42,476 nt of DNA from a bacterium (GTDB taxonomy: Bacteria > Patescibacteriota > Gracilibacteria > Peribacterales > Peribacteraceae). The notes below the pieces were generated by a model. The model did no database searches and was not told where the DNA came from. It worked only from the letters and a program-made list of their open reading frames with translations. Of this stretch, positions 5,049 through 10,015 are shown piece after piece. The stretch's first letter is position 1; each line of letters begins with the position of its first letter. The translations under genes were made by a program, and so were the position numbers. The stretch spans positions 1 to 42,476 of the forward strand of contig JAKQEM010000047.1 of NCBI GenBank assembly GCA_029558515.1, written 5' to 3'.

Positions 5049-7244
5049 TTATTGAATCTCTCTTTGCATAACATCTATCCCAAGTACGGCGACAGCATTC
5101 CCTGCCGCGTCATAAATTGGTGATGTACCTGTTGTGCGTGTTTTGTTTGGATCCTTGACGGAGTTAATTGCATAGGATGGCACTCGAAGTCCATTGAGAA
5201 AAATCTCTGGTGCAAAATTGGCAATATCATATCGCACACCAGGTGCCACATTTCTATTGTCATCATCCAATCCTCCATTGAGATCTACAAATGCACCTTC
5301 AAAAAGATTGAAGGGATTTACGTCTGCATCAGCAACATACTCCCAAATCCCCTCTGTTTCTGTAGGTCGTAAGATATACACATATCTGATTTCAGGATTA
5401 TTGCGACGAATAGTATTAAGCTGTTCAAATACACGCTGATACTCTTCTTTCCTCATATCTCGCGCAAAGTGCAGAGCACCAATATCCTCGGCATTTATTT
5501 GCTGCGCTGCAAAGGATGCAATTGCCATTAATCGATTGCCAATTTCTTCTCTTAGAATCGCACTTTTGTAAGATCGATAACTGAGGGAAAAAATGCATAT
5601 TGCAGAAATACCGAGTGCTAATAAGGATATCAACACCTGACGCCGCCATAATACCCAAAATTCATGCAAGAGTGTGTTATAAAAAGCTACAAATCGGATT
5701 AGTATTAATGTAAAAAAGATTAACAGGGATATGCCAATCATCCAAAATAATTGATTTGAAAATCGACGTACCTCGTCTGCCGCGATATCAATACCCAAAA
5801 TTGCCACAAGTTCATTACGATCATTTCGTATGGGTGCATTCGCAGAATACCAAATTCCCCATTGATCTCTTATGGGAGATGCAGATACTGTGGGCTTAAC
5901 AACATCCATTTCATATTCTTGTCCCGATACATCATATGGTTCTCCCGGAGGACTTAATTGATCTGCGTCATCAATAACACCATCCTCATTCAGATCCTTC
6001 ACAGCAAGTGGGTCCATAGAATCCGCATCGGCCACAAACTCCCATGTATTTGGATCATCCGTTAAACGGAAAATATATGTATTGCTCACAATTGGATTGT
6101 GATCACGGATCAAATTGAGCTGATCAACGACCTTTTTGTACTCAGGCCTATGTATGTCATCGATTGTGCGCAACACATCGAGATCATCAGCATCAAACTG
6201 CACTGCGGCAGTCGCGGCGATGGATAGTGCCTGCTCCCGTATGTTCTGTACATTACGAGCCAAATTTATGCGGTATAGACCTGCCGTGGCGAGTAACGCA
6301 CAGAAACCGAAGATCGCAAGTGTGATAAGGCTGTTTCGGCTCAGAAAAAACTCCCGCAACTGCGATGCGAGTCGCGTTCGTAAAGAAGGCTGAGAGACAT
6401 CGATGATGACTGCATTCTCCACATCTTTGCGTTTCTTCTGTTTGGGAACCTCCGGAGGAACCGTACTCTGCTGCACCTGCCTGTTCCAAATCTTTTCAAA
6501 AAATATGCGTTCGTCCTGCGCGAGTTCGGGATAGCGAATGAAGCAGGCGCGTTCATCCTCCACCTGAAAACAGGCCAACGTGTCGCCGATGATTATTTTT
6601 TCGAAGGGAAAAGGAAAATCCGCCTTATCGACCAAAATGGTTTTGCGATATTCAAAGGAGTCACGCGATTGGTAGCGGCGGCCCTGCGGCGTGTCATGCG
6701 TGAGAACACGGGAGAAGATGCCGCGGCGACGGCGCTCGCGGAAGTACTCCACCCAAAACGCCTGCAACGGATCTTCCTGCGGAGCCCACAGCATGGGGCC
6801 GTACTGCACGATGTCATTGCCGCGCTCCAGCATGCGCATGTACGCATCCTTCATTGCTTCCAATCCCTCAAAAAATTCCATCTCCGGTCGCTTCTTCACG
6901 TTGACGGTCAGTGAGCGAACGAACGACTCCAAGTTGTGATGCTTGCGTACAAGCATCTCCTGCTTGAGCACCATATCCTCCTTCATCCACTCGACGACGG
7001 TCTGCACGGACATCAACGTATACCGCGGGACACCGTTGATCATTTCCCGCGTCACCAATCCCTTCTTCAGGAGCTTCTTCACCGCTTGGTCGAGCACGCC
7101 CGTGCTCTTGCTCGTTTTCGTCGAAAGCTCCCGCAGCGTCAGACTGTCGCCTTCCAGTAATTTTCGGATCACGGCGATCTCGGTACCGGAGAATCCGGCC
7201 TCTTGAAGATAAGCTGCGATGCTGGAGGGGAGAGTGGAGTCCAC
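5049..7244 (-). CDS. Membrane-tethered TrmB-family regulator with two extracytoplasmic Cache-like domains
   Basis: 731 residues, GTG start. Residues ~10-80 form a TrmB-type winged helix (SGTEIAVIRKLL, then TLRELSTKTSKSTGVLDQAV). Residues ~118-255 form the PLD-like effector domain common behind TrmB helices (EFFEGLEAMKDAYMRML, then FEKIIIGDTLACF). A basic linker leads to TM1 (~303-325), Cache-like domain 1 (~340-490), TM2 (~498-522), TM3 (~537-556) and Cache-like domain 2 (~570-731). The two sensor units are duplicates: WEFVADAD versus WEYVADAD, and GIDIAADE versus GIDVMQRE. Domain 1 contains an EF-hand-like loop, DLNEDGVIDDAD (417-428). The protein ends right after the second sensor with no closing helix. 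The predicted topology puts the DNA-binding part in the cytoplasm and the sensors outside. GC content falls sharply between the DNA-binding and sensor halves, which suggests a fusion. Confidence 0.85.
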   Translation of the reverse strand: MDSTLPSSIAAYLQEAGFSGTEIAVIRKLLEGDSLTLRELSTKTSKSTGVLDQAVKKLLKKGLVTREMINGVPRYTLMSVQTVVEWMKEDMVLKQEMLVRKHHNLESFVRSLTVNVKKRPEMEFFEGLEAMKDAYMRMLERGNDIVQYGPMLWAPQEDPLQAFWVEYFRERRRRGIFSRVLTHDTPQGRRYQSRDSFEYRKTILVDKADFPFPFEKIIIGDTLACFQVEDERACFIRYPELAQDERIFFEKIWNRQVQQSTVPPEVPKQKKRKDVENAVIIDVSQPSLRTRLASQLREFFLSRNSLITLAIFGFCALLATAGLYRINLARNVQNIREQALSIAATAAVQFDADDLDVLRTIDDIHRPEYKKVVDQLNLIRDHNPIVSNTYIFRLTDDPNTWEFVADADSMDPLAVKDLNEDGVIDDADQLSPPGEPYDVSGQEYEMDVVKPTVSASPIRDQWGIWYSANAPIRNDRNELVAILGIDIAADEVRRFSNQLFWMIGISLLIFFTLILIRFVAFYNTLLHEFWVLWRRQVLISLLALGISAICIFSLSYRSYKSAILREEIGNRLMAIASFAAQQINAEDIGALHFARDMRKEEYQRVFEQLNTIRRNNPEIRYVYILRPTETEGIWEYVADADVNPFNLFEGAFVDLNGGLDDDNRNVAPGVRYDIANFAPEIFLNGLRVPSYAINSVKDPNKTRTTGTSPIYDAAGNAVAVLGIDVMQREIQ

Positions 7245-7599: not shown

Positions 7600-8790
7600 T
7601 CATGGACGCGGATAGTGCGCATGCACGAAGTCGATGTCCTTATCCCCTCTACCGGATAAATTCATGAGAATGAGCGAACCGGGCTCCCGCTTGGCGAGCG
7701 TCTTGCAGAATGCCACGGCATGAGCGCTCTCGAGCGCGGGGATGATGCCCTCGATGCGCGAGAGATCGTAGAAAGCATCGATGCACTCCGCGTCCGTCAC
7801 GACCTCGCATCGCATACGCTTGCTGTCATGCAGAAAGCTGTGCTGGGGGCCGACACCGGGATAGTCCAGACCCGAAGCAATGGAATGGACCGGCGCAGGT
7901 TCACCCTTCTCATCCTGCAGGAGATAGGTATACATGCCGTGAATCGTGCCCGGAGAACCGTAGCGCAACGTGGCCGCATGCTCGCCGAGCTTCGTTCCCT
8001 TGCCTCCGGGCTCCACGGCGTAAATCGCAATGGCCTCATCTTCCAGAAACGCGGAGAAGAGACCGATGGCATTGCTGCCACCGCCGACACAGGCGACGAG
8101 ACTATCGGGCAAACGTCCCGCTTGCTCCTGCACCTGCTTGCGCGCCTCCTCGCCGACGATTCGTTGGAAGTCCCGCACGATGGCGGGGAAGGGGTGCGGA
8201 CCCACCACGGAGCCGATGGCGAAGAAGAGATGCTCAGGATCATTCATGTACGCCTCAAGAGCCGCATCCACCGCCGCCTTCAGCGTACGACCACCGGATG
8301 TGACGGGAACCACGCGCGCGCCGAGCATCTGCATCCGGAGGACGTTGGGCGCTTGCTTCTCGATATCGACGGTGCCCATGTACACGTCGCAAGGCATCCC
8401 GAGCACGGCAGCTGCGGTCGCGAGCGCCACGCCGTGCTGTCCCGCGCCGGTTTCCGCCAACACTTTCTTCTTCCCCATGTGCTTGGCGAGCAGCACTTCG
8501 CCGATGCAGTGATTGATCTTGTGCGCACCCGTGTGATTCAAGTCTTCGCGTTTGATGTAGATATCCGCTCCATACTGTTTGCTCAATGCTCTGGCATGAT
8601 AGACGGGAGAAGGTCTGCCGATGTAATCGCGATGGAAACGGGCGAGTTCTTGTCGAAAAGCGGGCAGATTTTTCAGCTGTTCATAGGCCGTTTCGATCGC
8701 ATCGAACATGGGTGTGAGGGCATCGGGAATGAACTGTCCGCCGTAAGAACCGAAGAATCCGCCTGTGGGAATGATGTCGTACTGAGGCAT
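7600..8790 (-). CDS. trpB: Tryptophan synthase beta subunit
   Basis: About 396 residues from ATG 8790 ([20 protein letters not shown]), the usual TrpB N-terminus. It makes L-tryptophan from indole and serine with PLP. Visible motifs are the PLP lysine in [11 protein letters not shown], the catalytic Glu region [11 protein letters not shown] and the PLP-phosphate loop [10 protein letters not shown]. No trpA or other trp gene is in the window, so the cell may salvage indole or use TrpB alone. A longer frame reaches GTG 8865 but would run through the terminator hairpin and lacks family homology. A Trp-containing leader peptide and an intrinsic terminator lie immediately upstream, with the terminator only ~22 nt from the ATG. 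This points to attenuation control. Confidence 0.96.
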
Positions 8791-8810
8791 GGGAGAAAGT
8801 GGAAACAAAG

Positions 8811-8841
8811 TAAAAAAACACCCTGCCGACCGGCAAGGTGT
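8811..8841 (-). terminator. Intrinsic terminator in the trpB leader (candidate attenuator)
   Basis: On the minus strand ACACCTTGCC (8841-8832), loop GGTC and GGCAGGGTGT (8827-8818) form a 10-bp stem with one G-U pair, followed by seven T (8818-8812). It lies ~20 nt after the stop of the Trp leader peptide and ~22 nt before the trpB ATG. No promoter fits between it and trpB, so transcription must pass it to reach trpB. An upstream segment (8897-8886) can pair with 8835-8827 across stem and loop, giving a possible antiterminator. Confidence 0.85.
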
Positions 8842-8861
8842 GAGAGCATCAAAGGATACAT

Positions 8862-8933
8862 TCACCAGCCGTACGGCGGTTTGAGTGCCGTCGGTCGCCA
8901 GATGCCGTTGCCCGAAGCAATGTACTTTTGCAT
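8862..8933 (-). CDS. Trp leader peptide, 23 aa (candidate trpL)
   Basis: An ATG-to-TGA frame reads [14 protein letters not shown] at the start and PPYGW at the end. Trp occurs at position 12 and at the very last sense codon, two in 23 residues. It sits directly behind a good promoter (TTGACC, 17 bp, TAGTGT) whose -10 box ends 7 nt before the ATG, so it would be translated from a leaderless mRNA. It is followed after ~20 nt by a strong intrinsic terminator and then trpB. The arrangement is that of a ribosome-mediated Trp attenuator. With the ribosome stalled at the last Trp, the segment after Trp12 would stay free to form the antiterminator. Function is inferred from layout; no homologue is known to me. 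Confidence 0.7.
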
Positions 8934-8940
8934 CGGTACA

Positions 8941-8969
8941 ACACTACATCGCATGCGTGATACGGTCAA
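8941..8969 (-). promoter_or_regulatory. Promoter of the trp leader-trpB transcript
   Basis: On the minus strand, -35 TTGACC (8964-8969) and -10 TAGTGT (8941-8946) have a 17-bp spacer. The predicted transcript start falls at or next to the leader-peptide ATG (8933). It lies 17 bp beyond the pilT stop codon. Confidence 0.75.
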
Positions 8970-8986
8970 TGTCTTCTCCGGACCCA

Positions 8987-10015
8987 TCACTCCCCCGTCG
9001 CCCACTCGTAGGTTTCCTTGGTGATGAGTTCCTCCTTGTAGAGACGCTTGGCGTCCTTCTCGAAGGAGATCATGCCGAGATCTTCGCCGGTCTGCAGGAC
9101 GGATTTGAGTTCCTGGATACGAGAGTCACGAATGATGTTGGCGCAGGCGGGCGTATTCATCAACACCTCGCGCTGCGCGATGCGTCCGCCACCGACCTTG
9201 GGCAGGAGCCGCTGCGCGATGACGGCCCGCAGCGACATGGAGAGCTGCGCGCGAATTTGCGGTTGCTGGTGTGGGGGGAACACATCGATGATACGATCAA
9301 CCGTCTGAACGGTATTGGGGGTGTGGAGCGTCGCGAGGATGAGGTGACCGGTTTCGGCCAAGGTGAGGGCGGCGGCGATGGTCTCCGGGTCGCGCATTTC
9401 TCCCACCATGACGATGTCGGGATCCTGACGCAGCACGCGCTTGAGCGCTTCGGCAAACGAGAGAAAGTCCTGCCCGAACTGGCGCTGGCGAATGACGCTC
9501 TTCCCCTGCGGAAAGATGAATTCGATCGGATCCTCCAGCGTGACAACCGACGCCGCGCGCTCCATGTTCACATGATTCAAGATGGAAGCCATCGATGTGG
9601 ACTTTCCCGTGCCCGTCGGACCCGTGAAGAGTATCAACCCCTCGCGCATGTCCAGGAAGGAAGCGGCCAATTGCTCCAGCGCCAAATCCTGCAACGTGGG
9701 AATGACGGTGGGGATGACGCGGGCGACGAGACCGAGGTTGTTTTTTTCGTAGTGGCAGTTGATGCGCAAGCGCGAACCGTCATCCAGTTGGTACGCAATA
9801 TCCACCTCGCGATCCTGCCCCAGGCGCTTGAAGTTGAAATCCCCCAACACCGCCTTCACGAACTTCTCAGCATCGGCGACCGACACGGTGCCCTGCGTCT
9901 GCGGGATGAGTGCGCCGTCGATTCGGAAGAGGAGCGGCGCGCCCACGGCGATATGCACGTCGGACGCTCCGGCTTCCACGGCTTTTGCAAAGAGAGAGGA
10001 GGGTGTTGCAGGCAT
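8987..10015 (-). CDS. pilT: PilT-family type IV pilus retraction ATPase
   Basis: 342 residues. The N-terminal PAS-like domain starts with SLFAKAVEAGASDVHIAVG. The ATPase domain has Walker A GPTGTGKST (132-140), an Asp box around TLEDPIEF, Walker B around DPDIVMVGEMRD and the His box TGHLILATLHT. PilT hexamers disassemble pilin at the inner membrane and drive twitching and DNA uptake. The dprA gene elsewhere in the window fits a DNA-uptake route. No other pil genes are present. The promoter TTGCGG-17-TATGAT lies 6 nt before the ATG, implying a leaderless mRNA. Confidence 0.95.
   Translation of the reverse strand: MPATPSSLFAKAVEAGASDVHIAVGAPLLFRIDGALIPQTQGTVSVADAEKFVKAVLGDFNFKRLGQDREVDIAYQLDDGSRLRINCHYEKNNLGLVARVIPTVIPTLQDLALEQLAASFLDMREGLILFTGPTGTGKSTSMASILNHVNMERAASVVTLEDPIEFIFPQGKSVIRQRQFGQDFLSFAEALKRVLRQDPDIVMVGEMRDPETIAAALTLAETGHLILATLHTPNTVQTVDRIIDVFPPHQQPQIRAQLSMSLRAVIAQRLLPKVGGGRIAQREVLMNTPACANIIRDSRIQELKSVLQTGEDLGMISFEKDAKRLYKEELITKETYEWATGE

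Follow-up and report, generated by a model that had tools for sequence, protein, structure and literature searches.

A Probable Two-Level Tryptophan Switch ahead of a Lone trpB Gene in the Peribacteraceae

The locus considered here raises the question of how a trpB gene that stands alone in the genome of a member of the Peribacteraceae (Patescibacteria) is controlled. The window, a stretch of 42,476 nucleotides (contig JAKQEM010000047.1 of assembly GCA_029558515.1), carries this gene on its minus strand, and a first-pass annotation had proposed that a ribosome-mediated tryptophan attenuator is located in front of it. From the comparison of related sequences reported here, the gene is very likely preceded by a two-level Trp-responsive switch. 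The attenuator before the lone trpB is retained from the earlier proposal, whereas the antiterminator drawn at that time, the role given to Trp23, and the novelty claimed for a leaderless leader peptide are not.

All of the elements named in the first-pass annotation were found on the minus strand where they had been placed, including the promoter, the 23-codon frame with tryptophan at codons 12 and 23, the 10-bp terminator with seven T, and the ATG of trpB. That inventory lacked a 20-bp operator-like palindrome, within which the start codon of the leader lies. The features are collected in Table 1. The whole element occupies 8970-8811 of the minus strand, the spacer between the -35 and -10 elements in the window is 17, and the distance from the predicted start to the terminator is only ∼120 nt. 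The promoter of the window was missed by a generic promoter scan, the -10 box alone being too weak (3/6); the position of this box is nonetheless conserved among the homologues. A search of positions 8500-9300 against Rfam returned no family match at E up to 1.

Table 1. Features of the proposed switch and of its surroundings in the window
Feature	Position	Strand	Basis
-35 element, TTGACC	8969-8964	minus	sequence; TTGACA at the equivalent place in G060, G061, G062, and G002
-10 element, TAGTGT, within TGTAGTGT (8948-8941)	8946-8941	minus	15 of 17 homologues have a TA...T hexamer ending 7 nt ahead of the leader start position
Palindrome TGTACCGATGCAAAAGTACA, 20 bp, proposed TrpR-type operator, holds the leader start codon	8940-8921	minus	recurs across the family (46 of 74 genomes)
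Predicted transcription start, leaderless, at the leader ATG or 1 nt before	8934-8933	minus	conserved 7-nt spacing between -10 element and start codon
Leader peptide frame, 23 codons, ATG to TGA	8933-8862	minus	equal length and Trp12 in G012; homologous leaders in ∼25 genomes
Control codon Trp12 (TGG)	8900-8898	minus	aligns with WW of homologous leaders
Second Trp codon, codon 23	8867-8865	minus	sequence
Segment 1, predicted to pair with segment 2 when the ribosome is absent	8894-8887	minus	1:2 hairpin 80% paired, at most 41% when slid
Segment 2, predicted antiterminator 5' strand, overlaps the stop codon and the codons just before it	8877-8863	minus	pairs with 8840-8825
Segment 3, predicted antiterminator 3' strand, inside the terminator hairpin	8840-8825	minus	pairing with 8877-8863
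Intrinsic terminator hairpin, 10 bp, segments 3:4, ACACCTTGCC GGTC GGCAGGGTGT	8841-8818	minus	sequence and folding
T7 tract of the terminator	8817-8811	minus	sequence
trpB, 396 aa, ATG at 8790	8790-7600	minus	PF00291; single TrpB match in the genome
Upstream neighbor, T2SSE-family ATPase, pilT-like	end at 8987		domain search

The protein encoded downstream was identified as a PLP-dependent TrpB (PF00291) whose best relatives are TrpBs, and it is the sole TrpB match in a 1.3-Mb genome that is 99% complete. Neither trpA nor trpC was found in this genome, and thus trpB is truly alone, as the first-pass annotation had supposed. A TrpB of the same type is present in two relatives, G012 (84% identical) and G013 (81% identical). 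There is no leader in front of the trpB from G013, and a trpR gene and an operator-like site are found ∼475 nt upstream of it. The lone TrpBs (G000, G012, and G013; L001, L002, and L027) share 46-52% identity with the TrpBs from the operons of the family (L004-L015), compared with up to 66% for TrpBs of other phyla. They group together in a maximum-likelihood tree, in a clade that lies apart from the operon TrpBs of the Peribacteraceae and among those of other phyla, and because of this position the lone trpB was probably acquired separately. Downstream of trpB (5049-7244, minus strand) is a gene whose 731-aa product apparently has membrane segments and shows a weak TrmB/MarR-like match at its N terminus.

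The family sample consisted of 74 genomes, the relatives being titled Candidatus Peribacteraceae or Peregrinibacteria, and a search at the level of the order gave the identical 74 genomes. Approximately 25 homologous leaders were found in the Peribacteraceae, each with the palindrome, a peptide containing Trp codons, and an intrinsic terminator, followed by a gene. The typical leader has WW at codons 12-13; W or WW is mostly found within codons 11-14, and W occupies codon 12 in nearly all of the homologous leaders. The start codon is an NTG within the palindrome (positions 8-10 of 20) in 14 leaders, with codon 12 as the first Trp codon (codon 14 in G058), and the frame starts just past the palindrome in G024, G026, G032, G064, and G068. 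Examples of the encoded peptides are MHQYNTPRRLGWWQALTQSAVR, VHKYIAPHRLGWWQTLTHSVRR, VHKYIFKCRQIWWLAANKPLYSW, and MQQYNVLSRLGWWAVSPKSACR. A single Trp is present in the leaders of the window, G012, G031, G021, G019, and G023, several of which contain Trp-Arg (G031, G021, and G023), one base change from WW (TGG to CGG). In the leader of G071, two Trp codons occur apart from each other.

A sequence model made from 13 leaders matched 23 genomes at E below 0.001, and the genome of the window was matched at the window only. When the search was extended to the class (353 genomes), convincing leaders were found only in the same family; the remaining matches, with 2-3 mismatches, look like chance as judged from the matched sequences. 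In neighboring DNA, 0.5% of NTG starts open a frame of 15-40 codons with Trp at codon 12 and 0.18% a WW frame, so that the W at this codon in nearly all homologous leaders is beyond chance. The comparison with relatives that the first-pass annotation had put forward was also carried out, and the leader-bearing relatives keep a frame with Trp mostly at or near codon 12 and a terminator. The leader of G012, the nearest leader-bearing relative (MQQYILPLHAGWRLTAFQALYSR followed by the stop codon), has 23 codons without frame indels relative to the window and keeps Trp12, and codon 23 has changed from Trp to Arg. The window and G012 keep one Trp only, at codon 12, and also share Arg13, Tyr4, and Tyr21. 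The terminator of G012 differs in sequence from that of the window and is similar in form.

The genes found downstream of these leaders are mostly trp genes; they comprise trpE operons that also carry trpG/D, C, F, B, and A, as well as trpB, radical SAM proteins, and proteins without a Pfam match. The Trp-related genes that the leader would control in related genomes are trpB, trpE operons, and trpE-G fusions, and in the operon maps the leader is found at the head of the operon, ahead of trpE. In the six stretches tested, no such leader was found directly upstream of the other TrpB genes of the family (∼50% identical). In G060 and G062 (L193 and L195), a fusion of chorismate-binding and glutamine amidotransferase domains (TrpE-TrpG or phenazine-type) is located behind a WW leader. 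In G058, G061, and G002 (L115, L194, and L221), a radical SAM/SPASM protein of ∼390-400 aa (containing NQCFGIEVVPGRRC) is encoded downstream of a Trp leader and an operator-like palindrome of its own, the assignment in G002 being made by sequence similarity. A protein family of ∼290-320 aa with the sequence MTTLSTEPSANAIHGALRLKSIDPRIG is found behind WW leaders in G036, G066, and G064 (L170, L121, and L266); its gene follows trpR directly in G064 and G066, and the copy from G036 has no Pfam match. The gene for the MTTLSTEPSANAIHGALRLKSIDPRIG family is probably Trp-responsive.

Between the window and G012, conservation is highest in TGTACCGATGCAANAGTACATT, which is located over the predicted start site. 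When this sequence was searched for in the family, many further sites were found, and the reversed control gave none. The relaxed palindrome TGTAC-N10-GTACA (20 bp) is present in 46 of the 74 family genomes, and the control has matches in only 3. Many of the palindrome sites are less than 1 kb from genes of PF01371 (Trp repressor, trpR), which are found in 69 of the 74 genomes and in two copies in the genome of the window, one of them at 12979-13233 of contig C32. The NTG start codon is usually inside the palindrome in the homologous leaders, and in many of them a second half-site, 8 bp upstream, overlaps the -10 box; the TGTAGTGT segment of the window is possibly such an upstream tandem half-site. 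The trp operator of E. coli K-12, as read from the genome, agrees with the palindrome in its 20-bp length and outer GTAC, whereas its core is CTAG rather than the CCGN found here. With the agreement limited to the outer GTAC and the length, and the CTAG core absent, the link of the palindrome to TrpR rests mainly on the genomic neighborhood. Because the palindrome recurs near trpR genes and shares these properties with the E. coli operator, it is probably a TrpR-type operator over the start site.

Palindromes that are found beside trpR without a leader (L155, L176, L178, L187, and others) mostly read NTG-TAA, with a stop codon directly after the start codon, whereas those of the leader type mostly read NTG-CAN. 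This difference suggests that the operator sequence has been adjusted so that the leader frame stays open. The genome of the window contains an operator-like site of its own at C32 (L200:1861-1880), TGTAATGATGTAACGGTACA, ∼100 nt after its own trpR; a 64-codon frame follows, and there is no WW leader.

In 15 of the 17 palindrome-aligned leaders, a TA...T hexamer, usually TGTANNNT, is found whose end lies exactly 7 nt upstream of the start position. TTG-rich hexamers resembling a -35 element are located 16-18 nt further upstream and read TTGACA in four leaders. From the constant 7-nt spacing between the -10 hexamer and the start codon, we infer that transcription starts at the start codon or one base before it.

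The alternative RNA structures were predicted by folding each transcript with the part that a ribosome would cover masked. With the ribosome placed at Trp, 10 of 14 leaders had as their best fold a long helix that joins the frame end to the terminator (the antiterminator), and with the ribosome at the stop codon the terminator folded in all 14. A fifteenth leader, from G066, is outside this count because its sequence ended before its terminator. The antiterminator helix of the window (segments 2 and 3 of Table 1) is the minimum-energy fold with a 46-nt mask. With masks of at least 48 nt, the terminator (-29.7 kcal/mol) is slightly more stable than the antiterminator (-28.6 kcal/mol), a difference of 1.1, and thus the switch would have to rely on the order of folding. 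The lower part of the antiterminator helix is the predicted fold once transcription has reached only the terminator loop.

The covariation check suggested in the first-pass annotation was performed, and compensatory changes across relatives were found for the pairing of 8877-8863 with 8840-8825. Among the seven leaders of the window subtype, 92% of the cells of the antiterminator helix are paired and four pairs are changed on both sides, compared with at most 51% paired and at most one both-side change in slid alignments. The pairing between the leader after the Trp codon and the terminator exceeds that of dinucleotide shuffles in the window (p = 0.020), in G012 (p = 0.027), and, at p < 0.05, in 16 of 20 leaders, these p values ignoring the relatedness of the leaders. 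The 1:2 hairpin (8894-8887 with 8877-8869) is 80% paired (A4), as opposed to at most 41% when slid, and in the window it belongs to the ribosome-free fold, which retains the terminator. Taken together, these folds predict a mutually exclusive antiterminator strand that is free when the ribosome stalls at Trp and covered when it is at the stop codon, with the two folds of the window near-equal in energy. The antiterminator originally proposed (8897-8886 with 8835-8827) does form 9 of 9 pairs in the window, whereas just 2-6 of them are retained in relatives. It was set aside, since it is complete only in the window and its first strand, which overlaps segment 1, begins right after Trp12 and would lie under the stalled ribosome. 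Trp23 was likewise rejected as a control codon, being Arg in G012 and lying inside the antiterminator strand, which a ribosome stalled there would cover.

A two-level switch of the following kind very likely operates. At the first level, when tryptophan is plentiful, a repressor of the TrpR family would bind to the palindrome (8940-8921) that overlaps the predicted transcription start. At the second level, which is supported by the comparison of leaders, transcripts that escape repression would have their 5' end at the leader AUG or beside it, and their translation would begin immediately, with no ribosome-binding site upstream. When charged tRNA-Trp is scarce, the ribosome would stall at Trp12, leaving 8877-8863 free to pair with 8840-8825 and permitting read-through into trpB. 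When tryptophan is plentiful, the ribosome would reach the stop codon and cover 8877-8863, so that the terminator (8841-8811) forms and transcription ends. Without translation, the 1:2 hairpin is predicted to leave the terminator intact. The known chemistry of TrpB implies that the enzyme alone would make tryptophan from scavenged indole and serine. Several observations run counter to this scheme: the window has one conserved control codon where most homologues have WW, its terminator fold is slightly more stable than the antiterminator with masks of at least 48 nt, the palindrome lacks the CTAG core, and G013, with the third TrpB of the clade, has no leader. The single conserved Trp codon of the window may give a weaker response than WW.

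It is improbable that the locus is controlled by repression only, with the palindrome as the operator and the frame and hairpin as by-products, namely, a terminator of the pilT-like gene and chance Trp codons. DNA conservation between the window and G012 is indeed strongest at the palindrome, many palindromes adjacent to trpR have no leader, and the trpB from G013 has a trpR gene and an operator-like site without one. However, W is found at codon 12 in nearly all leaders and a terminator in each of them, the alternative pairing shows covariation, and the frame has no indels between the window and G012. A terminator for pilT needs neither a Trp frame nor a frame end that is complementary to it.

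Attenuation that does not sense tryptophan at codon 12, and responds instead to another residue (Arg13, Tyr4, or Tyr21) or to a general coupling with translation, is very improbable. These three residues are kept alongside Trp12 in the window and G012, and Trp-Arg is also found in G031, G021, and G023, but Tyr4 follows from the GTAC of the palindrome and Tyr21 from the antiterminator strand. Moreover, the homologues carry WW and precede trpE operons, and the gene controlled here makes tryptophan. A Trp sensor of the T-box, TRAP, or riboswitch type located in the 5' leader would also account for a terminator-controlled leader ahead of a trp gene, but given the lack of an Rfam match at E up to 1, a transcript of only ∼120 nt to the terminator, and the conservation of the Trp-codon frame, such a sensor is scarcely conceivable.

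The preferred reading, repression combined with attenuation, has precedents. In E. coli, repression by TrpR is combined with attenuation through TrpL (PMC7755916). The trp leader of E. coli resembles the element described here in having a repressor palindrome at the promoter, a short peptide with Trp codons (tandem in the K-12 sequence), 1:2, 2:3, and 3:4 pairings, and a terminator before the gene. It differs in that the palindrome described here covers the predicted start site and has the start codon of the leader inside it, no 5' untranslated leader is predicted, the target is a lone trpB, and the operator core is CCGN rather than CTAG. The trpL transcript of Sinorhizobium meliloti starts at its ATG and is subject to ribosome-dependent attenuation, and trpLE(G) is reported to be free of transcription repression (PMC7298713). 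A leaderless peptide with Trp codons and ribosome-dependent attenuation are predicted here as well. In S. meliloti there are three consecutive Trp codons, and trpE(G) is controlled; a leaderless leader peptide is not the novelty that the first-pass annotation took it to be. The trpRBA set of Chlamydia trachomatis likewise consists of trp salvage genes in a reduced genome and combines TrpR repression with the logic of Trp-dependent attenuation (PMC7755916). The annotated TrpL of Chlamydia is unvalidated, and attenuation takes place in trans via a WWW motif in YtgCR (PMC7755916), in contrast to the cis attenuator proposed here.

The mechanism of attenuation is already known, and both leaderless trp leaders (S. 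meliloti) and the combination of TrpR with attenuation (E. coli) are precedented. In the open-access literature, no paper was found that joins Patescibacteria or Peribacteria with attenuation. The fusion of the operator with the leader start codon, the lineage within the Patescibacteria, and the targets, including a lone trpB, look new in that no description of them was found in the open-access literature, although this does not prove their absence. We consider it likely that in the Peribacteraceae a module of ∼130 bp fuses Trp repression with ribosome-mediated attenuation, in which the operator doubles as the start and the first codons of a leaderless peptide, and that further genes have been drawn under this module as it spread, among them a lone trpB of separate origin and genes that are not known to take part in Trp metabolism.

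On the comparative evidence, the classic two-level control of tryptophan synthesis would also be present in a reduced lineage of the Patescibacteria whose gene control has hardly been studied. The leaders are compact, with the first codons of the peptide written in the bases of the putative repressor site, and a protein-binding code and a reading frame would thus be carried on one stretch of DNA. The leaders may also mark genes without an assigned function as Trp-responsive. The apparently separately acquired trpB would now be under the control of the family's own system, and thus the supply of tryptophan, probably made from scavenged indole, would be monitored in cells that are expected to live off others.
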